30,374 nucleotides of DNA, from the IMG/VR virus record IMGVR_UViG_3300046009_001256, positions 1-30,374 of that record, one strand, 5' to 3'. Shown here one piece after another: positions 7,545-27,411 of this stretch (its first letter is position 1; each line of letters opens with the position of its first letter). Both the position numbers and the translations under genes were made by a program. The notes under the pieces were generated by a model that searched no databases, had not been told where the DNA came from, and saw only the letters and a program-made list of their open reading frames with translations. The stretch is from a virus.

Positions 7545-7673
7545 ATGCCAATGGTCGGAAAAATGAAATTTGCTTACACAGAAAAAGGTAAAAAAGAAGC
7601 TAAAGCCTACGCTAAAAAGTCAGGCAAAAAGATGGCAGCTAAGCCTATGAAAAAGGCTGCTAAGCGTGGCTAG
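7545..7673 (+). CDS. Very small polybasic protein
   Basis: The protein has 42 residues with a strong AAGGAGAA Shine-Dalgarno. The start is MPMVGKMKFAYTEKGKKEAK; the rest is an Ala/Lys-rich tail, and Lys plus Arg make up over a third of residues against two Glu. The pattern MPxVGKxxFxYTxxGxxxAxAYAKKxGK recurs in phage genomes in this setting. It could bind DNA or be a minor virion component. It overlaps the next gene by 8 nt. Confidence 0.6.
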   Translation: MPMVGKMKFAYTEKGKKEAKAYAKKSGKKMAAKPMKKAAKRG

Positions 7674-7842
7674 TAAGTCAAAAGTAAATCAGGCAGGCAA
7701 CTATACCAAACCAACTATGCGTAAAGCTTTATTTAATAAAATTAAAGCTGGCAGTAAAGGTGGTGATCCAGGTGAATGGTCTGCTCGTAAAGCTCAACTC
7801 CTTGCCGTGCAATATAAAAAAGCAGGTGGGGGTTATAAGTAA
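7666..7842 (+). CDS. Small conserved basic phage protein (GTG start)
   Basis: The protein has 58 residues and starts at GTG 7666, giving MASKSKVNQAGNYTKPTMRK; no ATG start fits that conserved N-terminus, since the first in-frame ATG lies at residue 18. The end, EWSARKAQLLAVQYKKAGGG, carries the SARKAQxLAxQYKKxGGGYK motif well known in small phage proteins located near terminase genes. It is highly basic. It overlaps the gene before by 8 nt and shares one base with the next start. Its function is unknown; association with packaging or the virion is inferred from constant position. Confidence 0.7.
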   Translation: MASKSKVNQAGNYTKPTMRKALFNKIKAGSKGGDPGEWSARKAQLLAVQYKKAGGGYK

Positions 7843-8078
7843 TGGCTCTTGCTAAATCTCAGCAGTCTTTAAAAGCTTGGACTAGTCAAAAATGGAAAAC
7901 ATCTGATGGCAAACCAAGTAAAGGTAAAAAAAGATATTTACCTGAGGCTGCTTGGAAAGCATTAAGCTCTTCTGAAAAAGCTTCTACAAATAAAGCTAAA
8001 GCACAAGGTAACAAAGCAGGAAAACAGTTTGTTAAACAACCAAAGAATATAGCAAAAAAAACAGCGAGGTTTAGATAA
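7842..8078 (+). CDS. DUF5872-like basic protein
   Basis: The protein has 78 residues with a recognised layout: LKAWTSQKWKTSDGKPSKGK (about 10-29), RYLPEAAWKALSSSEKA (about 31-47) and the end GKQFVKQPKNIAKKTARFR. This matches the DUF5872 family of small basic proteins found in phages and some bacteria. A DNA-binding or virion role fits the charge, but none is proven to my knowledge. It sits in a run of four small basic genes just before the terminase. Confidence 0.7.
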   Translation: MALAKSQQSLKAWTSQKWKTSDGKPSKGKKRYLPEAAWKALSSSEKASTNKAKAQGNKAGKQFVKQPKNIAKKTARFR

Positions 8079-8079
8079 A

Positions 8080-8373
8080 ATGAAAACACCAGCATGGACA
8101 AGAAAAGAAGGAAAGAATCCTAAGGGTGGATTAAATGCCAAAGGAAGAGCTTCCTATAAAGGTGGAACTCTAAAAGCTCCTGTTAAATCAGGTGATAATC
8201 CACGCAGAGCTTCTTTCTTAGCTCGTATGGGTGGTATGCCAGGACCAGAACGTAAACCTAATGGAGAACCAACTAGACTATTGTTATCTCTTAAAGCTTG
8301 GGGAGCATCATCTAAAGCAGATGCTAAAGCTAAGGCAAGAGCTATATCTGCTAGAAACAAAAATAAGAAATAA
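8080..8373 (+). CDS. DUF6321-like basic protein
   Basis: The protein has 97 residues. It starts MKTPAWTRKEGKNPKGGLNA, has GRASYKGGTLKAPVK at about 22-36, and NPRRASFLARMGGMPG at about 40-55, the R-R-x-S-F-x-A-R-M-x-G-M signature of the DUF6321 phage family. The C-terminus is Lys/Ala-rich. Its stop shares a base with the ATG of the terminase large subunit, so the two are coupled. The role is unknown; a helper in DNA packaging is a reasonable guess. Confidence 0.7.
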   Translation: MKTPAWTRKEGKNPKGGLNAKGRASYKGGTLKAPVKSGDNPRRASFLARMGGMPGPERKPNGEPTRLLLSLKAWGASSKADAKAKARAISARNKNKK

Positions 8374-11756: not shown

Positions 11757-11984
11757 ATGGATTTAAAATCTGAAAAAGCTAAAAGCTTATCAAAACAAGA
11801 AGTTTTCGATTTACTTAAAGCGTATATCACTGACCAAGTTGAATTGTCTAGACGTAAATGTATAGATGAAGAGAATTTTTCTCTTCCTTCTTGGGCTGAA
11901 TATCAAGCTTATCAATTAGGCTTCCAAAAAGCATTTCTAAAACTTCAGTCTTTATTACCTGACAAAGGAGAAAGTAATGTCTGA
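11757..11984 (+). CDS. Small hypothetical protein, possibly leaderless
   Basis: The protein has 75 residues and begins MDLKSEKAKSLSKQEVFDLL. It is mostly helical, charged, with no membrane segment. The middle (NFSLPSWAEYQAYQLGFQKA, about 40-59) and the final LQSLLPDKGES resemble small proteins placed between portal and scaffold genes in other podophages. No other Met is available as a start. The ATG coincides with the predicted transcription start of the promoter directly upstream and no Shine-Dalgarno precedes it, so a leaderless mRNA is possible, unless read-through transcripts from upstream provide the message. The end overlaps the scaffold gene by 8 nt. Confidence 0.6.
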   Translation: MDLKSEKAKSLSKQEVFDLLKAYITDQVELSRRKCIDEENFSLPSWAEYQAYQLGFQKAFLKLQSLLPDKGESNV

Positions 11985-12684
11985 AGACAATAAAATAGCT
12001 GAACCTAGTACCAACGAAGTTCAGAACCAAGATAACCAACAACCCGTATTCCAGATTCCGACAGAAGCTGCTGAATTAGTGGGAGATGGTAAGAAGTATA
12101 ACTCTGTAGAAGATGCGTTAAAATCAGTTCCTCATGCTCAGAAGCATATTCAAACTTTAGAGTCTGAATTAGCTGCTGCAAGAGAAGAACTCACTAAACG
12201 TAAAACTACTGAAGAACTTCTAGATGAAATTAAGTCTGGAATTCAACCACAGATTACCTCTGCTGGATCTGAATTTGATCAAGATAAATTATTGAAATTA
12301 GTTGATCAAACCTTAGAGCAAAAAGAAAGACAAAGAGCAGCTAAGACTAATGCTGAAACAGTAGCAAATAAGTTTACTGACAAGTATGGTCAAAAAGCTG
12401 AAGAAGTCTACAATACTATTGCTCGAGATAGTGGATTAACTGTACAACAATTAAATAGCTTAGCAGCTAGTTCTCCCAAGATTGTACTAAAACTTGCTGG
12501 TCTAGAAGGAACATCTGCTCCAGTAGCAGGTAAACCAACTAGTTCAGTTAATACAGAAACTCTTGGTAATAAGCAAGACCCAAATCAGTTATCTGCTAGG
12601 GTTAAGCAAGGAGCGACTACTAAAGATTTAGTCAATGCATGGAAGATTGCTGGCGAAAAAGTTAAATTAAATTTATCACAATAA
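11977..12684 (+). CDS. Capsid assembly scaffold protein (T7 gp9-like)
   Basis: The protein has 235 residues, acidic and mostly helical. After a disordered N-terminus, VFQIPTEAAELVGDGKKYNS (about 24-43) and EDALKSVPHAQKHIQTLESE (about 45-64) form the motif found at the start of podophage scaffolds, followed by a coiled coil (about 55-90) and a second helical part. The C-terminus is basic (GEKVKLNLSQ), suitable for contacting the capsid protein. It guides procapsid assembly and leaves before maturation. A GGAGAA Shine-Dalgarno precedes the ATG; the capsid gene starts 12 nt after the stop. Confidence 0.82.
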   Translation: MSEDNKIAEPSTNEVQNQDNQQPVFQIPTEAAELVGDGKKYNSVEDALKSVPHAQKHIQTLESELAAAREELTKRKTTEELLDEIKSGIQPQITSAGSEFDQDKLLKLVDQTLEQKERQRAAKTNAETVANKFTDKYGQKAEEVYNTIARDSGLTVQQLNSLAASSPKIVLKLAGLEGTSAPVAGKPTSSVNTETLGNKQDPNQLSARVKQGATTKDLVNAWKIAGEKVKLNLSQ

Positions 12685-12696
12685 TAAGGAAAAAAC

Positions 12697-13680
12697 ATGT
12701 CACAATTAACTAGTAATACAACTGCCTTTATTGAGGCACAACAGTATTCACAGTTTATTCTTGATAACTTACATGATTTCTTACTACCTGAAGGTATGTG
12801 GAGAGATGTATCAGACTTTGGTTCTGGCACTACTTTAAACATTAAAACAGTTGGTACTGTAACAATTCAAGATGCAGCTGAAGATACACCATTAAACTTT
12901 AACCCTATCGACACAGGTACTATCACTTTAGGTATCACTGATTATGTTGGTGATGCATGGAAAGTGTCTGACGACCTCCGTGAAGATGGTGCTCAAGTAG
13001 ACTCATTAATGTCTATGCGTGCAATGGAATCAACTCGTGCTCTTGGTGAAAACCACGAATCACGTTTCTTAGCTACAGCTAACGCTGCTCAAACTAACGC
13101 TAACGTAAACTTAGTTAACGGCCGTCCACATCGTTGGGTAGCTGGTGGTGCTTCTGCATCTACACGCGTTATGACATTATCTGATATCATTGCTATGAAA
13201 TTAGCATTTGATAAAGCTAATGTTCCTACAGCAGGCCGTATCGCTATTGTTGATCCAATCGTTGAAGCAACATTAAACAGCATCACTAACTTAGTTAGCG
13301 TATCTAACAACCCAATGTTCGAAGGTATCGTTACAGAAGGTTTTGCTAAAGATCACAAATTTGTTAGAAACATCTTTGGTTTCGACATTTGGACTTCTAA
13401 TCGTTTACCAGTTAAGACTGCTACAGAAGCATTAAACGCTTCTTCATACAACTTAGCAAACGATACAGCTGAAATCGGAGACGTAGCTAACATGTTTATG
13501 TGCGTAGCCGATGACTCAACAAAACCAATCATGCATGCTTGGAGACGTGCTCCTAAGACTGAAGGTTGGAGAGACAACGAAGAACGTGCTGATAAGTATC
13601 AAGTTACTTCTCGTTTCGGTTTTGGTGCCCAACGTGTTGATACACTTGGTGTTATTTTAACTAGCGGTTCTACATACTAA
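12697..13680 (+). CDS. Major capsid protein
   Basis: The protein has 327 residues, close to T7 gp10A (345). It begins MSQLTSNTTAFIEAQQYSQF, the N-arm typical of marine podophage capsids, then a GTTLNIKTVGTVTIQDAAED strand pair (about 45-64) and TDYVGDAWKVSDDLREDGAQ (about 85-104). An A-domain region follows with PTAGRIAIVDPIVEATL (about 172-188), and the end is RFGFGAQRVDTLGVILT. This fits the HK97 fold. A good Shine-Dalgarno (AAGGA) precedes the ATG. Arg codons are mostly CGT, unlike many neighbours that use AGA more, consistent with high expression. It lies directly after the scaffold and in a cassette with its own promoter and terminator. Confidence 0.92.
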   Translation: MSQLTSNTTAFIEAQQYSQFILDNLHDFLLPEGMWRDVSDFGSGTTLNIKTVGTVTIQDAAEDTPLNFNPIDTGTITLGITDYVGDAWKVSDDLREDGAQVDSLMSMRAMESTRALGENHESRFLATANAAQTNANVNLVNGRPHRWVAGGASASTRVMTLSDIIAMKLAFDKANVPTAGRIAIVDPIVEATLNSITNLVSVSNNPMFEGIVTEGFAKDHKFVRNIFGFDIWTSNRLPVKTATEALNASSYNLANDTAEIGDVANMFMCVADDSTKPIMHAWRRAPKTEGWRDNEERADKYQVTSRFGFGAQRVDTLGVILTSGSTY

Positions 13681-14826: not shown

Positions 14827-15603
14827 ATGGCTAAGATGACACTACTTGAAATTGTCCAAGACATCATGTCCGATATGGATTCTGATGAAGTTAACTCTAT
14901 TAATGATAGTGTAGAGTCATTACAAGTAGCTCAACTCGTTAAGTCTACTTACTACAACATTGTAGATGGTAAAGACTACCCTTGGTTATATGAATTATTT
15001 CAGTTAGGTACTAGTGGTACAGTATCTAGACCTACTCATATGAGACTCCCTGAAACAATCATTGATCTTAAATGGATTAAATATGATTGTAAGAAACCTG
15101 GAGAAACTCGTAACAGATTTACAAAGATTGAATACAAGACTCCAGAAGAGTTTCTAGATATTACTGATCAACGATTAAGTACAGACTCTAAAATAACAGT
15201 TGTAACAGATTCTACAGGTATTAAAATCAATGTATATGATGATAGAGCTCCTAGTTATTTCACATCTTTTGATGATGACTACCTAGTCTTTGATGCCTAT
15301 AATTCTGCATTAGAGTCTTCTCTACAAAATAGTAAAACACAATGTCATGGTAAACGTTCAGTAGCTTTTACTCTATCTGATACTTTTACTCCTGACCTTC
15401 CAGTACAGATGTTTACTTATCTACTTAATGAAGCTAAATCAGCTGCATTCTTAACTCTAAAACAAATGCCTAATCCTAAAGCTGAACAAATTTCAGTATC
15501 TCAAAAACGTAAGATGAGCCAAGAAGCTTGGAAGATTAGTAATGGTATTAGATATCCTAATTATGGACGAAAGGGAAAAGTAACTAGGATGGGAGGTTAC
15601 TAA
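14827..15603 (+). CDS. Tail tubular protein A (T7 gp11-like)
   Basis: The protein has 258 residues, longer than T7 gp11 (196). It starts with helices (LLEIVQDIMSDMDSDEVNSI; then ESLQVAQLVKSTYYNI), then the WLYELFQL and RPTHMRLPETIIDLKWIKYD segments (about 47-76) typical of the gatekeeper/adaptor family that forms the dodecameric ring beneath the portal. The end is basic (YPNYGRKGKVTRMGGY). Position after the capsid cassette and before gp12-like agrees with T7 order. The stop shares a base with the small gene at 15603. Confidence 0.82.
   Translation: MAKMTLLEIVQDIMSDMDSDEVNSINDSVESLQVAQLVKSTYYNIVDGKDYPWLYELFQLGTSGTVSRPTHMRLPETIIDLKWIKYDCKKPGETRNRFTKIEYKTPEEFLDITDQRLSTDSKITVVTDSTGIKINVYDDRAPSYFTSFDDDYLVFDAYNSALESSLQNSKTQCHGKRSVAFTLSDTFTPDLPVQMFTYLLNEAKSAAFLTLKQMPNPKAEQISVSQKRKMSQEAWKISNGIRYPNYGRKGKVTRMGGY
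15592..15596 (+). promoter_or_regulatory. Strong RBS for the small gene at 15603
   Basis: GGAGG at 15592-15596 lies six bases before ATG 15603, inside the last codons of the tail tubular A gene. Its quality supports active translation of the 48-residue gene that follows, which overlaps another small gene in a different frame. Confidence 0.65.
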
Positions 15604-15749
15604 TGTCAATGCTCACAAGTAATACACCAGCATTTATTAACGCAGAACAATACGGAAAGAAAGGAAAAAAGAATGGCAGAAAAGTGGATACAAAAAGCAA
15701 TCAAAAAGCCAGGAGCATTAAGAAAAGCTCTAGGGGTAAAAGAAGGTAA
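15603..15749 (+). CDS. 48-residue protein with capsid-like N-arm and polybasic tail
   Basis: This short frame starts in a TAATG overlap behind a strong GGAGG. Residues 1-17 (MSMLTSNTPAFINAEQY) match the major capsid N-terminus (MSQLTSNTTAFIEAQQY) at 13 of 17 positions. Residues 18-48 are polybasic: 15 of 31 are Lys or Arg. The last 77 nt overlap the next gene in another frame. A minor virion peptide, a capsid-interacting DNA-binding peptide, or a leftover of a capsid duplication are all possible. The similarity is seen directly; the role is speculation. Confidence 0.55.
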   Translation: MSMLTSNTPAFINAEQYGKKGKKNGRKVDTKSNQKARSIKKSSRGKRR

Positions 15750-15855
15750 AACAATTCCTGCAGGCATGTTAGCTAAAGCTGCTAAAAAACCAGGTAAGAT
15801 GGGTCAACGTGCTCGTCTAGCTCAAACTCTAAAGAAAATGAGTAAAAAGAAATAA
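15673..15855 (+). CDS. Small conserved basic phage protein
   Basis: The protein has 60 residues. It carries KWIQKAIKKPGALRKALGVK (about 4-23), a motif that recurs in small proteins of cyanophages and pelagiphages, then GMLAKAAKKPGKMGQRARLA and a KKMSKKK end. It is very basic, Ala/Lys-rich and probably helical, and may bind DNA or membranes. An AAAGGA sequence lies at suitable distance upstream. The gene overlaps the previous small frame by 77 nt and shares one base with the next start. Position between the two tail tubular genes suggests a virion or assembly role. Confidence 0.7.
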   Translation: MAEKWIQKAIKKPGALRKALGVKEGKTIPAGMLAKAAKKPGKMGQRARLAQTLKKMSKKK

Positions 15856-16064
15856 TGAAAACATTTACAACTCCTAACGGAAAAGAAATACAGATCTTTA
15901 GAGATAAAGTATCAGCTCAATATAAACTTCAATTTAGTTCTGGTGGAGAGTTACCAGAAGAACTAACTGGCATCTTTACGAATGAACTCTTTGCTGAAAC
16001 TGCTATTAATAAATACCTAGAGAAACAAGAAACTAAAAAAGTTAAAGCTGAAACTAAGGAGTAG
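15855..16064 (+). CDS. Small hypothetical protein
   Basis: The protein has 69 residues and reads MKTFTTPNGKEIQIFRDKVS, with LPEELTGIFTNELFAETAIN at about 33-52 and a charged Lys/Glu-rich C-terminus. A small beta part followed by a helix is likely, and the FTNELFAETAI segment looks conserved among phage proteins at this place. It is coupled to the previous gene by a one-base overlap and followed by the tail tubular B gene after 2 nt, with AAGGAG as its Shine-Dalgarno. Function unknown. Confidence 0.6.
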   Translation: MKTFTTPNGKEIQIFRDKVSAQYKLQFSSGGELPEELTGIFTNELFAETAINKYLEKQETKKVKAETKE

Positions 16065-16066
16065 TA

Positions 16067-18316
16067 ATGGCTGTAGGTAATGAGAAGATCTATAGATCAT
16101 TCACTAAGGGTCTAATTACTGAGGCTAGTCCTCTTACATTCCCTGAGAATGCTTCTATTGATGAACGTAACTTTGTCCTTAATCGTAATGGATCTAGATC
16201 TAGACGTCTAGGTTTAGACTACGAAGGAGGTTACTCTCTCAAAGCTACAGGCTTTTCTACAGCTGCCCTTCAAACAGGTAAACAATCTTTTCATAAGTGG
16301 GATGTACCTGGTGGTGATACCACAGTAGCTATTGGTGTTATTCGTATTCTTAATAAACTTTGGTTTATTGATTTACTTACTAATGCTCCTAGTGCTAACT
16401 TCCTTAATGGTGGTTCTTCAATCACTTTAGCTGGCCTTAATACAGCTGATATTGAAACAGCAACAATTAATAATAAATTAGTTATTGTTTCAGAAGATTT
16501 AACTTACCCTATACTTCTTTCTTATAACTCATCTACAGATATAGTAACTCAAACCGATATTATTGTAGAAGTTCGAGATATTTGGGGTGTAAATGATAGC
16601 TTACTTGTTAATCAGCGTCCTACTTCATTAAGTAATCTACACAAATATAACTTAAGAAATCAAGGTTGGGCCCCTACAATTCAAACAAGTACGGGTGCAG
16701 ATGCTATTGATAGAACCTTTACTCAGATTGGTCAGTACCCATCTAATGCAGATGCTTGGATAAATGGTAAGATAACTAATCCAAGTTCAGGAGATTACGA
16801 GAAGTATGATGGTCAGACTATGGAAAATAATTCACAGTCTAACTTCCAAGTAGCTAAAGGTAGCTATATTATTGATGCTTTTAATAGAGGCACTGAACGA
16901 CAATCAAATTCAGGTTTAACTGGGTTACCTCTAGATAAAGAGAATGGTTCTTTTTCAACTATTGCTTCTTATGCTAGCCGTATTTTTTACTCTGGAGTTA
17001 ATTCATCTATTACAAGTGGAGACTCTAGATCACCTAATTATAGTGGTTACATATTCTTTACTTCTATTGTTACTGGTGATGATAAGTTAGGTGTCTGTTA
17101 TCAAGAAGCTGATCCTACAGATGCTGAGATTAATGATCTAGTTACAACTGATGGAGGTACAATCCAACTTCCAGAAGCTACTCAAATTATAAAAATTGTA
17201 TCATCACAGTCTTCTTTATTAGTTTTTGCTGATAATGGTGTATGGGAAGTTTACGGAGATACAGGTGGCTTTATTGCTACTTCTTTCCAAACAAGTAAAG
17301 TATCGACTAATGGTGTTAAAAATGCTAAGTCAATTGTAAATGTTAATGGTAACTTTGTTTACTGGTCTAAAGCCGGTATTTATTTACTTACTCCTGATGC
17401 TGCATCTGGTAGATTTTCAGCTAAATCAATTTCATTAACAACAATTCAATCTTTATTTTTAGAGATACCTACAGTTGGTAAGAACTTCTGTAAAGGTTTC
17501 TATGATGAAAAAGAAAATAGAGTTAGATGGCTTTACAATGATACTGATACATATACTACTAGTAACTATATTAATAAATATAATAAAGAACTTGTTTTAG
17601 ATTTAACATTAGAAGCTTTCTATGTAAATGAATTTTCTAGTTTAGTTAGTAATTCACCCTATATAGCTGACTATGTGGATATTCCAGGTTACTCAGTAAC
17701 AACTACTGACTCAAATGTTTTAGTAGGAACAGATGAAGTTATTGTAACTTCTACTGATAAGGTCATTATTACAGAACCAATAATTGCTTCAAGAACGACA
17801 CAGTTTAGCTTTTTAACTTTAGTTGGAGCTTCCTTTACAATATCTAAATTTGTAAATAGAAGTTTTACAGATTGGGAAACAGCTGGTTCAGGAACAGGAG
17901 TAAGTTATTCTAGCTATCTAGTAACTGGTTACGAACTCTTTGGTGATATTATTAGAAATAAACAAATACCCTATATTTTCTTTTACTTTAATAGAACCGA
18001 AGATGGATTTACTACAGTAGGACCTGCCCTCACAATTGATAATCCTTCCTCTTGTTTAGTACAAGCTCAATGGAATTGGGCTAATTCTGCTAACAGTGGT
18101 AAATGGGGTAACCAGTTCCAAGCGTATAGGTTATTACGAAACTATATTCCAAGTGGTTCAGGTGACCCATTTGACTATGGAGATTCTGTAATCGTTACTA
18201 AAAATAAACTAAGAGGTTCTGGTAAGTGTGTTAGTCTTAAGATTGAATCTGAAGCTGGTAAAGATATGCAAATACTTGGTTGGGGAGTCTCTGCAGTAGC
18301 TACAAGTAAACCGTAA
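16067..18316 (+). CDS. Tail tubular protein B (T7 gp12-like nozzle)
   Basis: The protein has 749 residues, close to T7 gp12 (794). The N-terminus (YRSFTKGLITEASPLTFPEN, about 7-26) followed by SIDERNFVLNRNGSRSRRLG is the hallmark of the podophage tail nozzle or stabilisation protein. A long beta-rich body follows, with segments such as SLLVFADNGVWEVYGD and NGNFVYWSKAGIYLLTPDA. Six copies would form the tail nozzle below the gp11-like ring. An AAGGAG Shine-Dalgarno lies upstream. The stop shares one base with the next gene. Confidence 0.85.
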   Translation: MAVGNEKIYRSFTKGLITEASPLTFPENASIDERNFVLNRNGSRSRRLGLDYEGGYSLKATGFSTAALQTGKQSFHKWDVPGGDTTVAIGVIRILNKLWFIDLLTNAPSANFLNGGSSITLAGLNTADIETATINNKLVIVSEDLTYPILLSYNSSTDIVTQTDIIVEVRDIWGVNDSLLVNQRPTSLSNLHKYNLRNQGWAPTIQTSTGADAIDRTFTQIGQYPSNADAWINGKITNPSSGDYEKYDGQTMENNSQSNFQVAKGSYIIDAFNRGTERQSNSGLTGLPLDKENGSFSTIASYASRIFYSGVNSSITSGDSRSPNYSGYIFFTSIVTGDDKLGVCYQEADPTDAEINDLVTTDGGTIQLPEATQIIKIVSSQSSLLVFADNGVWEVYGDTGGFIATSFQTSKVSTNGVKNAKSIVNVNGNFVYWSKAGIYLLTPDAASGRFSAKSISLTTIQSLFLEIPTVGKNFCKGFYDEKENRVRWLYNDTDTYTTSNYINKYNKELVLDLTLEAFYVNEFSSLVSNSPYIADYVDIPGYSVTTTDSNVLVGTDEVIVTSTDKVIITEPIIASRTTQFSFLTLVGASFTISKFVNRSFTDWETAGSGTGVSYSSYLVTGYELFGDIIRNKQIPYIFFYFNRTEDGFTTVGPALTIDNPSSCLVQAQWNWANSANSGKWGNQFQAYRLLRNYIPSGSGDPFDYGDSVIVTKNKLRGSGKCVSLKIESEAGKDMQILGWGVSAVATSKP

Positions 18317-24015: not shown

Positions 24016-26630
24016 TGGCACAAGAACGTTTTTCACAAACAATGACTCTACCTAGCTATGCAGCTAATCCTGTATCAGATAGAGCTGGACTAATTTCTAA
24101 TGATGTTTCTCAATTAGCAGGTACTTTAGGATTTGTTTCAGAAGTAGCTGGAGAAGCTATGAAATATAGTGCTATGAGTGAGGTTGAACAATCTATTAAA
24201 AAGGACATTGAGGACTATCAAAAACAAAGTCCTACGTATTTAGCACAAACTAATCTTGATGTTAAAACTATGCAAGATAAGTTAAATGATCCATCCCTAA
24301 AAGAATCTGAAATTCCTGGTATTGTTAAGTCTATAAATGACAAAGTAAACTTCTTACAAACAGCTAGAGATCAACGTAAGATTAATGACTATGAATTTAC
24401 ATCTAGAATTAATCAAGTTACTCGTGAAGCTTTAGCAAAGAACCCTGGATTTAGTAGAGAGATTCTATCTAAGGCTCAACAAACTCTTGACTTAAACAAT
24501 ATCCAACAAACTATTAAATTAGATGCTGCTTTGTATGAATCACAAAGAAAAACAGTAGAAGAAGAAAGACGTAACTTAAGAGAACTAGGTGAAAAGTACT
24601 TACTTAGAGCTCCTGAAATTGTAGGTGAAGATGGTCAAAAGTATCTTGATTATGCTGCTTTAGATAGAGAAGTAACTAAAGCAATGAATGATGAACGTAC
24701 AGCTAAAGGTATAGAACGTTTAGCTACTACTACTAAAAATATTAATGAAATACAATTACAAGAGATTGTAAACAACGGTATTCATTGGTCTGTAGTTAAT
24801 GATTCTTATAGATCTGGGTTATCTCAATTTAATACTTTAATGAAAGATCCTAGTGTTCCTTTAGATAAAAAGATTACTACACTAGACTTGTTAGCTAATC
24901 AAATGAAGCTAGATTTTAACACTAAATTTGGCAGATTCTATAACAAACCTGAGATCAAAGAGGCAGCTGATTTCTATACTAAACAGATTGATGGTGTAGT
25001 TACAGCTCTTAAGAATGATTCTACAGGTAAAAACTACGCTGAAATCCTTGAAACTAACTCTAAGATTAACACTAAGTTATCAGAATTAGAGTTACGTAAT
25101 ATGGGTATTGATCCTGTTTATACTAAAGTTTTAGGTGACCTTGCTCCTTACCTTAATAAGTTTAATCTTAATCCTAAAACAGAAAATACTTTAATTAATT
25201 GGTCTAATTTAGTTCTTGAGAAATCATTACAAAAAATGCAAAAAGGTGATAGTAATCCTAAAAATCAAGAAACTGTTGATAATGTATTCCAAAAAGGTAC
25301 TATCACTCTTCAAAATGGTGAGAAAGTTTCTATCAATGCTGGCTATCTAAACTCATCAGCTAATAATATTAGTAAGGGTGATGCTACTGTTGTTCCTGTA
25401 TTTAAACAATCTTTAGATAATTATATTGCATATATCAATTTTGACTCAGATTTCTTATCTACTAAAGATAGACAAGTACAACAAAAGAAACAGTTTGGTG
25501 CTATGGAAGAAATGTTTAAACAAATAGGTGATCCTAAGTTTAAAGAGGCAGCTAAATACATTGATGGTTATCAAGCATCTCAACTTTTAAAAGGTGTTGA
25601 TGAATATAACAGAGTCATCTATAATAACTTTATGAAATATAGAGCTGAAAATCCTAATGAGAAAGTTCGTATCAGTCAAAACTGGGACGGAACACTTATT
25701 GCTACAGGAGGCTCAGAAGAGTTTAATACTAACTATGTTGGCCGTATTAATACAGCATTAAAAGCATACTCTACATTACAAGGTAAGAGTCCTAATGAAG
25801 TATCTAATGAGTTCTACTCAAGATACTATCAAGATATTTTTACTAAGAATGTAAGTGAATTATCAATGAAAGTGAAACCAGTTGAAGAAGGTAATATTGA
25901 CCTTAAGAATAGACCAGTAGTGAAAAACACTGATGGTACTATAAGCACAGTCAGAAGTATGTCATTTAGAATGGGAAATACAGAAATTCTTGTACCTACC
26001 GTTTCTGATGATGGTAAGATTTTGACTGAAAACGAAGCAATTAAACGATACTTAGATACAGGTAAACATCTAGGTAAGTTTAGAACTGCAGAGGAGGCAA
26101 CAACATTTGCTAAACAACTTCACAATGAACAAGATAAAATGTATTCTCCTGGGAATACTCTTGATAATTTCTCAACCACTTCTGGAGGTGGAGCAGATAA
26201 AAAAGTAGGAGCTCAAAAGACATCTTATATGCCTAAGTTTATAACTGAGGCTAATGCAGGTGAAGTAGATAACATTCTTGTTAAACTTGCACAAAAAGAG
26301 TCTGGAGGATTACATATTAATCCGACTACTAGACAACTTGTAGAATCTCCTAAAGGAGCTAAGGGTGTTACTCAAGTAATGCCAGCTACTGGTGTTGATC
26401 CTGGTTATGGTGTTCAACCATTACGTGATCAATCAGAAGTAGAATACAAACGTTTTAGTAGGGATTACTTTGTAGCAATGCTTAAAGAGTTTAATGGTGA
26501 TGTAGGTAAAGCTTTAGCAGCTTATAACTATGGACCAGTTAATGTTAAGTCATTAGTTAAGAAACATGGTGATAGTTGGTATAATAAACTACCATCAGAA
26601 ACTAAAGATTATGTAGCATCTATACTATGA
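24015..26630 (+). CDS. Internal virion protein with C-terminal lytic transglycosylase domain
   Basis: The protein has 871 residues. Residues 1 to about 620 are helical, charged and without a recognised enzyme motif, similar to a gp15-type core protein. Residues about 625-710 contain NIDLKNRPVVKNTDGTIST, then ILVPTVSDDGKILTENEAIK and a GKHLGKFRTAEEATTFAKQL end, a module I recognise from other phage virion proteins. Residues about 750-871 are a soluble lytic transglycosylase (SLT) domain: catalytic Glu762 in AQKESGG, then KGAKGVTQVMPATG and ALAAYNYGPVNV. It would open the peptidoglycan during DNA ejection. In T7 the SLT domain is at the N-terminus of gp16; here it is at the C-terminus of another core protein. 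It overlaps the next gene by 4 nt. Confidence 0.82.
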   Translation: MAQERFSQTMTLPSYAANPVSDRAGLISNDVSQLAGTLGFVSEVAGEAMKYSAMSEVEQSIKKDIEDYQKQSPTYLAQTNLDVKTMQDKLNDPSLKESEIPGIVKSINDKVNFLQTARDQRKINDYEFTSRINQVTREALAKNPGFSREILSKAQQTLDLNNIQQTIKLDAALYESQRKTVEEERRNLRELGEKYLLRAPEIVGEDGQKYLDYAALDREVTKAMNDERTAKGIERLATTTKNINEIQLQEIVNNGIHWSVVNDSYRSGLSQFNTLMKDPSVPLDKKITTLDLLANQMKLDFNTKFGRFYNKPEIKEAADFYTKQIDGVVTALKNDSTGKNYAEILETNSKINTKLSELELRNMGIDPVYTKVLGDLAPYLNKFNLNPKTENTLINWSNLVLEKSLQKMQKGDSNPKNQETVDNVFQKGTITLQNGEKVSINAGYLNSSANNISKGDATVVPVFKQSLDNYIAYINFDSDFLSTKDRQVQQKKQFGAMEEMFKQIGDPKFKEAAKYIDGYQASQLLKGVDEYNRVIYNNFMKYRAENPNEKVRISQNWDGTLIATGGSEEFNTNYVGRINTALKAYSTLQGKSPNEVSNEFYSRYYQDIFTKNVSELSMKVKPVEEGNIDLKNRPVVKNTDGTISTVRSMSFRMGNTEILVPTVSDDGKILTENEAIKRYLDTGKHLGKFRTAEEATTFAKQLHNEQDKMYSPGNTLDNFSTTSGGGADKKVGAQKTSYMPKFITEANAGEVDNILVKLAQKESGGLHINPTTRQLVESPKGAKGVTQVMPATGVDPGYGVQPLRDQSEVEYKRFSRDYFVAMLKEFNGDVGKALAAYNYGPVNVKSLVKKHGDSWYNKLPSETKDYVASIL

Positions 26631-27043
26631 AGTTTGAATTTGATGAATCTTTAAGTAAAATTTTTAGAGCTGTAAAAGCTATAGGAGCTGAGGTAACAGG
26701 TATGGCTCCTAATAAAAAATTTGCTGAAGACGTAAGTGTAGAAACTTATGGTAAAGAATCACAACTTGGGGGTAAGGCTGATGCAATGCGTCATATTACA
26801 TTCTCAGCCCTTGCTTCTCAACAATACTCTGAACCTGTAGCTAAAACTATTTCAGTCTTAAACGAAAATATTACTTATAATCAGAGTAAAGCTGAAAAAG
26901 ATATGGATTATTCTAATGATGCTATAGGAAGAGATATAGCTAAAAAAGCAAAATCAAAAGAAGAAATTGTAGAAATGGCTAAAGAAGCTATTGATACTGG
27001 TAAAGCTAAAACAATTAAAGATACTACGGGTCCTTACTACTAA
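26627..27043 (+). CDS. Conserved phage protein with DAMRH motif (DUF6973-like)
   Basis: The protein has 138 residues. Motifs are LGGKADAMRHITFSALASQQ (about 47-66), LNENITYNQ (about 78-86) and EKDMDYSNDAIGRDIAKKAK (about 89-108). The order G-x-A-D-A-x-R-H, N-E-N and M-D-x-x-N-D-x-x-G resembles a domain seen in bacterial toxins and phage proteins (consensus DAFRHxxWNA, AHE, MDLxNNxxGR), for which I use the tentative name DUF6973-like. The conserved His, Glu and Asp/Asn could bind a metal. It is the last gene of the plus-strand unit and overlaps the SLT protein by 4 nt, suggesting a virion or wall-associated role. Function not established. Confidence 0.5.
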   Translation: MKFEFDESLSKIFRAVKAIGAEVTGMAPNKKFAEDVSVETYGKESQLGGKADAMRHITFSALASQQYSEPVAKTISVLNENITYNQSKAEKDMDYSNDAIGRDIAKKAKSKEEIVEMAKEAIDTGKAKTIKDTTGPYY

Positions 27044-27411
27044 AGAGCTTTAATTACCATTACTGGTATGTTTTTCTTTTGAGAATACTTAATCGAGTAC
27101 TCAGTTCCTTTACTCTTCCCATCCCAAATAGCCAACACCTTATCAGCATTATCTATTATCTGTTTAGATCTAATAAAGAAGTATTTACTACTAAACTCTG
27201 TACTAGGATCTAACAAATGGTATGGTAAGAACTCTACGAAATCATATCCGTGAGTTCTTGCATACTCTTTTGATATCTGATCAACTCCCTTAGCCCCTCC
27301 TGAGATAAATACAGGAGTTCCTACGACTTGTTCCTGGATGAACTTGTCGATTATAGGAATCACTATCTCAGGTTTATCTACACTCCTACTTCCAACAATA
27401 CAGATCTTCAT
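27040..27411 (-). CDS. SLOG-superfamily protein (YspA/DUF2493-like)
   Basis: The protein has 123 residues with a Rossmann-like nucleotide-binding pattern: MKICIVGSRS at 1-10, FISGGAKGVDQISKEYA at 35-51, an IRSKQIIDNADKVLAIWDG segment at about 80-98, and KGTEYSI after it. The SGGAKGVD loop and the IWDGKSKGT motif are signatures of the DUF2493/YspA group in the SLOG superfamily, proposed to bind nucleotides or nucleotide-derived ligands. It is the last gene of the minus-strand operon behind ribonucleotide reductase, consistent with a nucleotide-related role, but no reaction is known to me for phage members. Start ATG overlaps the previous stop (ATGA); its stop overlaps the convergent gene by 4 nt. 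Confidence 0.75.
   Translation of the reverse strand: MKICIVGSRSVDKPEIVIPIIDKFIQEQVVGTPVFISGGAKGVDQISKEYARTHGYDFVEFLPYHLLDPSTEFSSKYFFIRSKQIIDNADKVLAIWDGKSKGTEYSIKYSQKKNIPVMVIKAL
27055..27078 (+). terminator. Weak candidate terminator at the convergence point
   Basis: TACCA (27055-27059) pairs with TGGTA (27064-27068) around the loop TTAC, followed by TG and a T-rich run (27071-27080). The stem is only five pairs with two G-C, so efficiency would be low. It lies inside the 3' end of the minus-strand SLOG gene. It is the only terminator-like element seen where the two transcription units meet. Confidence 0.3.

Follow-up and report, generated by a model that had tools for sequence, protein, structure and literature searches.

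The heads of tailed phages are usually described as containing bare DNA together with metal ions and polyamines. In phage T4, a short N-terminal capsid-targeting tag sends small, partly basic internal proteins into the head, which is the kind of working that we propose below for a different protein; the T4 tag differs in that it is a substrate for cleavage by a prohead protease and does not reproduce the capsid N-arm. In encapsulins, short cargo-loading peptides dock cargo inside an HK97-fold shell; they are usually C-terminal and copy no segment of that shell. Among tailed phages, we are aware of no named precedent for a protein that carries a copy of the capsid N-arm, and our literature searches found no published description of one.

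The adenovirus core protein VII has a short N-terminal segment that binds hexon on the inside, and the remainder of the protein is basic and DNA-binding (PMC7998265). This combination of a capsid-binding segment with a basic body resembles the protein described here in its working only and does not place the two in the same family; adenovirus is an unrelated virus, and the pVII segment is not a copy of capsid sequence and is removed by a protease (PMC7998265). The SaPI1 protein CpmB is likewise a small protein that engages a shell surface to which another assembly protein binds, but it is a satellite protein that imitates the scaffold and alters capsid size, and no polybasic tail has been reported for it (PMC5644958). 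In solved HK97-fold phages, the inner-face contacts of the capsid N-arm are with neighboring subunits or with scaffold (PMC6813328, PMC5644958, PMC12005531). In SPP1, an N-terminal helix is bound to the scaffold in the procapsid and later unfolds to reach neighboring capsomeres (PMC6813328); in 80alpha, the N-arm helix is packed by the scaffold C terminus (PMC5644958); and in P22, acidic N-arm residues meet basic residues of the scaffold (PMC12005531).

Results

The capsid N-arm is copied at the start of a 48-residue gene product

The stretch of DNA analyzed here (the window) comprises positions 1 to 30,374 of the viral record IMGVR_UViG_3300046009_001256. Its capsid, adaptor, and tail genes are of the Zobellviridae-like podophage type, and the nearest named records are the Methylophilales phages MEP401 and MEP402 and the uncultured genome MW202697. 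On the plus strand, a scaffold protein gene (11977–12684), in the position of the annotated scaffold of MEP401/402, precedes the gene for the major capsid protein (12697–13680), which is assigned to the HK97 fold by PHROG 267, Pfam PF25209, and AF2/PDB comparison. Downstream, also on the plus strand, lie an adaptor or tail-tube-A-like gene (14827–15603, named from the annotation of relatives) and a tail-tube-B-like or head-closure gene (16067–18316, PHROG 8094).

The plus-strand ORF at 15603–15749, stop codon included, encodes 48 residues (MSMLTSNTPAFINAEQYGKKGKKNGRKVDTKSNQKARSIKKSSRGKRR) that open with MSMLTSNTPAFINAEQYG and continue into a Lys/Arg-rich tail. Residues 1–17 (15603–15653) match the start of the capsid protein (MSQLTSNTTAFIEAQQY, residues 1–17 at 12697–12747) at 13 of 17 positions and at 37 of 51 nucleotides, in a register shared from the Met, which reproduces on recount the values given in the sequence-only reading. 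By codon position, the matches number 12/17, 16/17, and 9/17 for the first, second, and third positions, respectively. The remaining 31 residues (15654–15746), previously described as about half Lys/Arg, contain 15 of them (48%). The strong Shine-Dalgarno sequence and coupled start described earlier are also present, the former as GGGAGG (15591–15596), 6 nt upstream of the ATG, and the latter as TAATG, in which the adaptor stop codon overlaps the arm-copy start (translational coupling).

The identity of the arm copy to the capsid arm after the Met is 12/16, and the runner-up among 903 ORF starts of the window reaches 5/16; when the capsid arm was shuffled 2000 times, the best ORF-start value was at most 8/16. 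In a BLOSUM test over 25 residues, 0 of 1000 shuffles attained the observed score. Neither a Pfam nor a PHROG match was obtained for the arm-copy protein, and a complete HK97 capsid fold is absent from it, the 48 residues comprising the arm only and a remainder that is unstructured in the AF2 model.

The placement between two tail-tube genes that had been pointed out is true of the window, but two other small plus-strand genes lie there as well. The first (15673–15855) encodes a basic protein of 60 residues (KWIQKAIKKPGALRKALG) and overlaps the 3′ end of the polybasic tail by 77 nt in another frame; the second (15855–16064) encodes 69 residues and directly follows the adaptor where relatives lack the arm copy. 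The arm-copy tails are equally basic in relatives without the overlap. Homologues of gene 15673 occur in HTVC027P (gp44), Rhizobium phages, and Thermus phages. The profile of fusellovirus VP2 (PF25632), a family of small basic virion proteins, gave no match to the arm-copy protein; its likeness to gene 15673 is weak (18.9 bits, and 22 for a homologue, with a cut-off of 27). In locus L209 (2257–2436, minus strand), the tail of the arm copy (KKGKLGQRKLLNTSLKKK) resembles by eye the C terminus of gene 15673 (KKPGKMGQRARLAQTLKK), as if an arm and a DNA-binding module had been fused. Elsewhere in the window, a minus-strand ORF (27040–27411) resembles, by eye only, a SLOG/DprA-like nucleotide-binding protein (GSRSVDKPEI...SGGAKGVD).

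The gene is retained among relatives

Capsid and adaptor searches and IMG/VR pattern scans yielded at least 110 distinct capsid/arm-copy pairs. Because copies were collected with a pattern (regular expression) that demands Phe and Tyr/Phe, the full conservation of those residues is partly built in. Chance matches inside unrelated ORFs aside, the motif matches listed in the pattern scan belong to this phage group wherever the capsid or adaptor could be checked. For a presence count, 122 distinct loci with a capsid at least 75% identical to that of the window were taken, and 7 incomplete loci were left out. The arm-copy gene is present in 112 of the 115 remaining, including one locus in which it is displaced downstream (L202) and one with a diverged form (L155), and is absent from L145, L147, and MW202697. 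Among 29 loci with more distant capsids (≤63% identity), none has an arm-copy gene after the adaptor, and no arm copies were found in the outgroup Zobellviridae CW02, SIO1 (for which the capsid start used was uncertain), ICP2, and Klyazma. Two contigs with distant capsids, L168/G001 and G008, carry an arm copy beside an HNH gene (MQTSGNTGAFVESQQYGKKK... and MQTTGNTGAFVEGQQYGKKK...), and the capsids paired with these copies start MQLTSNT... and MQLTGNT.... The arm copy of L168/G008 sits in a small-gene cluster comparable to a run of four small basic genes upstream of the terminase in the window (7545–8373; PHROGs of unknown function, DUF6321).

The family is carried by many marine and freshwater phages. 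MEP402_gp39 and MEP401_gp37, annotated as hypothetical, are the same gene ((M)TFTTANTLSFIHKEQYGKKKKK...), and the capsids of these phages begin MAHTTANT and MAHNTANT. The usual start of the gene is on the adaptor stop codon; in the MEP (OM43-phage) clade (L158, L178, L001, and relatives), the start is TTG, four bases into the adaptor gene, and not ATG. The sequence-only reading had considered that relatives might lack the frame or keep only the overlapping frame at 15673. The opposite was found, in that the arm-copy frame is kept and frame 15673, limited to some relatives, is often missing, and the likeness to the capsid N-arm is conserved across relatives. The ORF at 15603–15749 represents a real gene family and is not a relic.

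Arm and tail are maintained in different ways

A check for purifying selection, suggested at the outset, gave a positive answer for the arm: dN/dS of the arm copy is 0.19 in 38 close independent pairs and 0.22 in 49 more distant ones, compared with 0.17 for the capsid arm in both pair sets. Where arm and copy share a residue, the codon is identical in 53.6% of cases within a phage versus 55.5% between phages. Gene conversion or fresh copying from the capsid gene was rejected on these grounds, the codons of a phage's own capsid being no closer than those of other phages; since synonymous sites are not closer to the own capsid, the likeness of the arm is maintained at the protein level.

For arm-copy tails of equal length, dN/dS rises to as much as 0.80 at larger distance. 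The 108 tails contain 32–61% Lys/Arg and carry a net charge of +6 to +20, their sequences are highly variable, and near-identical tails are paired with different arms, for example in L301 and L399. The tail is maintained for charge rather than sequence. The last residues of many tails (those of L399, L402, L405, L301, and others) are KPKKQGY, KGY, or NYG, so that an aromatic C terminus is conserved on tails that otherwise vary.

One arm position co-varies with the capsid of the same phage

Numbered relative to the conserved Phe, residues T−6, N−4, T−3, A/S−1, I/V+1, and Q+5 are maintained in both the capsid arm and the copy. Every one of the 86 capsid arms has Glu at +2 (Glu13), but only 6 of the 86 copies do, the other 80 having a replacement there. 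Matched pairs of capsid and copy include MASTGNTTAF and MANTGNTSAF, MAHTTANT and (M)TFTTANT, and MSQLTSNT and MSMLTSNT. At position −7, which is Leu or polar in the capsid, the copy has the same hydrophobic or polar state in 76/86 pairs. A Pagel test of this position on the capsid-plus-adaptor tree favored the dependent over the independent model (LR 11.6, 4 df, p = 0.02), and the fit allows the copy to change only in the presence of a polar capsid residue. Fitch counts gave only one change of both proteins on the same branch. In a cluster permutation of likeness to the own versus another arm (8 clusters), p was 0.05 for the whole arm and about 0.02 for the first three to five residues; since the whole-arm result is weak, the claim of tracking relies on the tree-based test. 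Together, these data are moderate evidence that one arm position co-varies with the own capsid, with few independent changes behind it. Of the idea that each copy would keep matching its own phage's capsid N terminus, the conserved likeness thus stands, and the tracking stands in part, at a single position.

Structural context of the arm

The AF2 model of the capsid protein is HK97-like but of low overall confidence (pLDDT 62.8), with an N-terminal helix at residues 9–24; its arm and E-loop are poorly modeled. For the arm copy, AF2 predicts a helix at residues 9–17 followed by an unstructured tail. By Foldseek and VIA-align, the solved structures closest to the capsid model include the procapsid proteins of HRP29, T7, and P22. 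Neither phmmer nor profile searches with the capsid found a usable homologue among PDB sequences, and the place of the arm in the shell is therefore not readable from a close structure.

The scaffold C terminus (12586–12681) is strongly conserved and basic (SARVKxGA[ST]TKDLVxAWKxAGEKVK, also written SARVKxGATTKDLVNAWKIAGEKVK) and is probably a capsid-binding hook. By analogy with P22, we infer that the loss of Glu13 from the copies may reflect release from a scaffold contact, with the shell contacts retained.

The same design occurs in Pelagibacter phages

In a blind test within each genome, the capsid N terminus was set against the start of every ORF, using 1000 shuffles per genome. The result was 0/1000 for the window and for HTVC010P and HTVC034P, two cultured Pelagibacter phages, and at chance level for HTVC028P, HTVC027P (part), HMO-2011, T7, CW02, Klyazma, MW202697, and ICP2. 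In HTVC010P, an ORF at 24896–25000 (MITKNFAQQYSRKTSMLSQQTGKKKKKKKYKKKK), for which no gene is annotated in the record, copies the start of the phage's own capsid (MSSNITTAFVQQYSANVQMLSQQMGSLL) and has a lysine-rich tail; its counterpart in HTVC034P (MINKSFAQQYGKKVTMLSQQTGKKYGKKKSKRVYTSRKNTKKN), also unannotated, similarly joins the own capsid N terminus to a lysine-rich tail. A pattern scan found the HTVC010P-type design in 39 IMG/VR stretches, and pN/pS of the HTVC-type arm is 0.16 (11 pairs). The capsid of this type belongs to PHROG 3437, which has only remote likeness to PHROG 267 of the window, and the copied stretch in HTVC010P (QQYS....MLSQQ.G) extends further into the arm than does that of the window.

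The design of an arm copy joined to a basic tail therefore occurs in two capsid families. The two sets may have had independent origins or an ancient shared origin followed by tracking. The position between the tail-tube genes is not essential, since two relatives and the Pelagibacter phages have the gene at other places.

Discussion

We propose that the arm-copy protein is a minor head protein, of the virion or the procapsid, in which the borrowed capsid arm acts as an address tag and the tail holds DNA, a reading that we regard as evenly balanced between right and wrong. Residues 1–17 would imitate the capsid N-arm, with an extended LTSNT segment, a short helix, and a QYG break at the end, and would thereby take up a place on the shell where an N-arm binds. 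From there, the lysine-rich tail would extend into the lumen, where it may bind or screen DNA, and the contact between tail and DNA could tether the genome to the shell or ease its packing and retention. Docking on the shell, packaging, and DNA binding are all inferred; the idea of docking plus DNA contact is the best available and would be consistent with all findings.

In favor of a minor head protein are the presence of the gene in 112/115 relatives, the low dN/dS of the arm with no sign of gene conversion, the residues common to both arms, and the tracking at position −7. The helix predicted in both proteins, the 108 basic tails and the pairing of near-identical ones with different arms, the recurrence in HTVC010P and HTVC034P, and the inner-face contacts of N-arms in solved phages point in the same direction. 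Against it, L145, L147, MW202697, and the other Zobellviridae tested are without the gene, which is thus not needed by every such head; the co-variation comes from few independent changes; the capsid model is of low confidence in the arm; and the replacement of Glu13 in 80/86 copies indicates that the copy is at most a partial substitute for the arm. The searches brought to light no virion mass spectrometry, structure, or binding data, and no virion proteomics for MEP401/402.

It is possible, but unlikely, that the arm copy is instead an assembly modulator, which in the course of assembly would bind scaffold or free capsid subunits and compete with the real arm, affecting rate, size, or scaffold release, its tail binding acidic scaffold or nascent complexes and forming no genome tether. 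In SPP1, 80alpha, and P22, the capsid N-arm is indeed a contact site for scaffold, the scaffold of the window has the strongly conserved basic C terminus described above, and CpmB is a small protein that competes at the scaffold–capsid interface (PMC5644958). Yet Glu13, by the P22 analogy the candidate partner of a basic scaffold and invariant in the capsids, is the residue that most copies have lost, and competition needs no strongly cationic tail. Redirection of capsid size of the CpmB type was considered and rejected, as the arm copy matches the capsid N-arm and not the scaffold C terminus (SARVKxGATTKDL).

A part of the portal vertex or neck, present in about 5–12 copies per virion, would fill N-arm sites that are vacant at the vertex where a portal stands in place of a penton, and its tail would touch DNA or portal. 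The usual position of the gene, adjoining that of the adaptor and coupled to it in translation, would suit such a part, but in L168/G008 and HTVC010P/034P a long distance separates it from the neck genes, and we consider this reading improbable. Some host defenses sense phage capsid proteins, and a decoy that soaks up a sensor of the capsid N terminus would be expected to follow its own capsid, as the copy in part does; such a role is very improbable, as it leaves the lysine-rich tail unexplained and the gene is conserved across phages that presumably infect different hosts. A strong Shine-Dalgarno sequence and a coupled start would accord with a nucleotide-level element, in which the sequence shared at the start would serve translation initiation or act as an RNA signal and the peptide would be incidental, but this is contradicted by a dN/dS of about 0.2, by third codon positions that match least, and by shared codons that are no closer within a phage, so that we give it scarcely any weight. 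Least probable of all is the inert remnant of a capsid gene duplication that the sequence-only reading had also entertained: the arm presumably did arise by copying of the capsid 5′ end, but purifying selection, the 112/115 retention, and recurrence in a second lineage contradict inertness.

Returning to the minor head protein, we tentatively extend the proposal, with confidence a little short of even, to tailed phages at large, which may have more than once made a genome-tethering microprotein from a tag of their own capsid N-arm and a protamine-like tail. The tag would have to keep matching the shell, and the design would be a general and overlooked cationic-peptide route into heads, often encoded in ORFs too small for annotation. 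Such genes can be found in a single step by matching the capsid N terminus against every ORF start in its genome. The arm copy would offer a short, naturally occurring tag with which to load cargo into HK97-fold shells and, as a test of N-arm docking, would show which arm residues are needed without the remaining capsid. If the capsid-addressed polycation is real, it would bring a protein component into the packing of the genome in marine phages that are very common, the HTVC010P-type pelagiphages and the OM43 phages.
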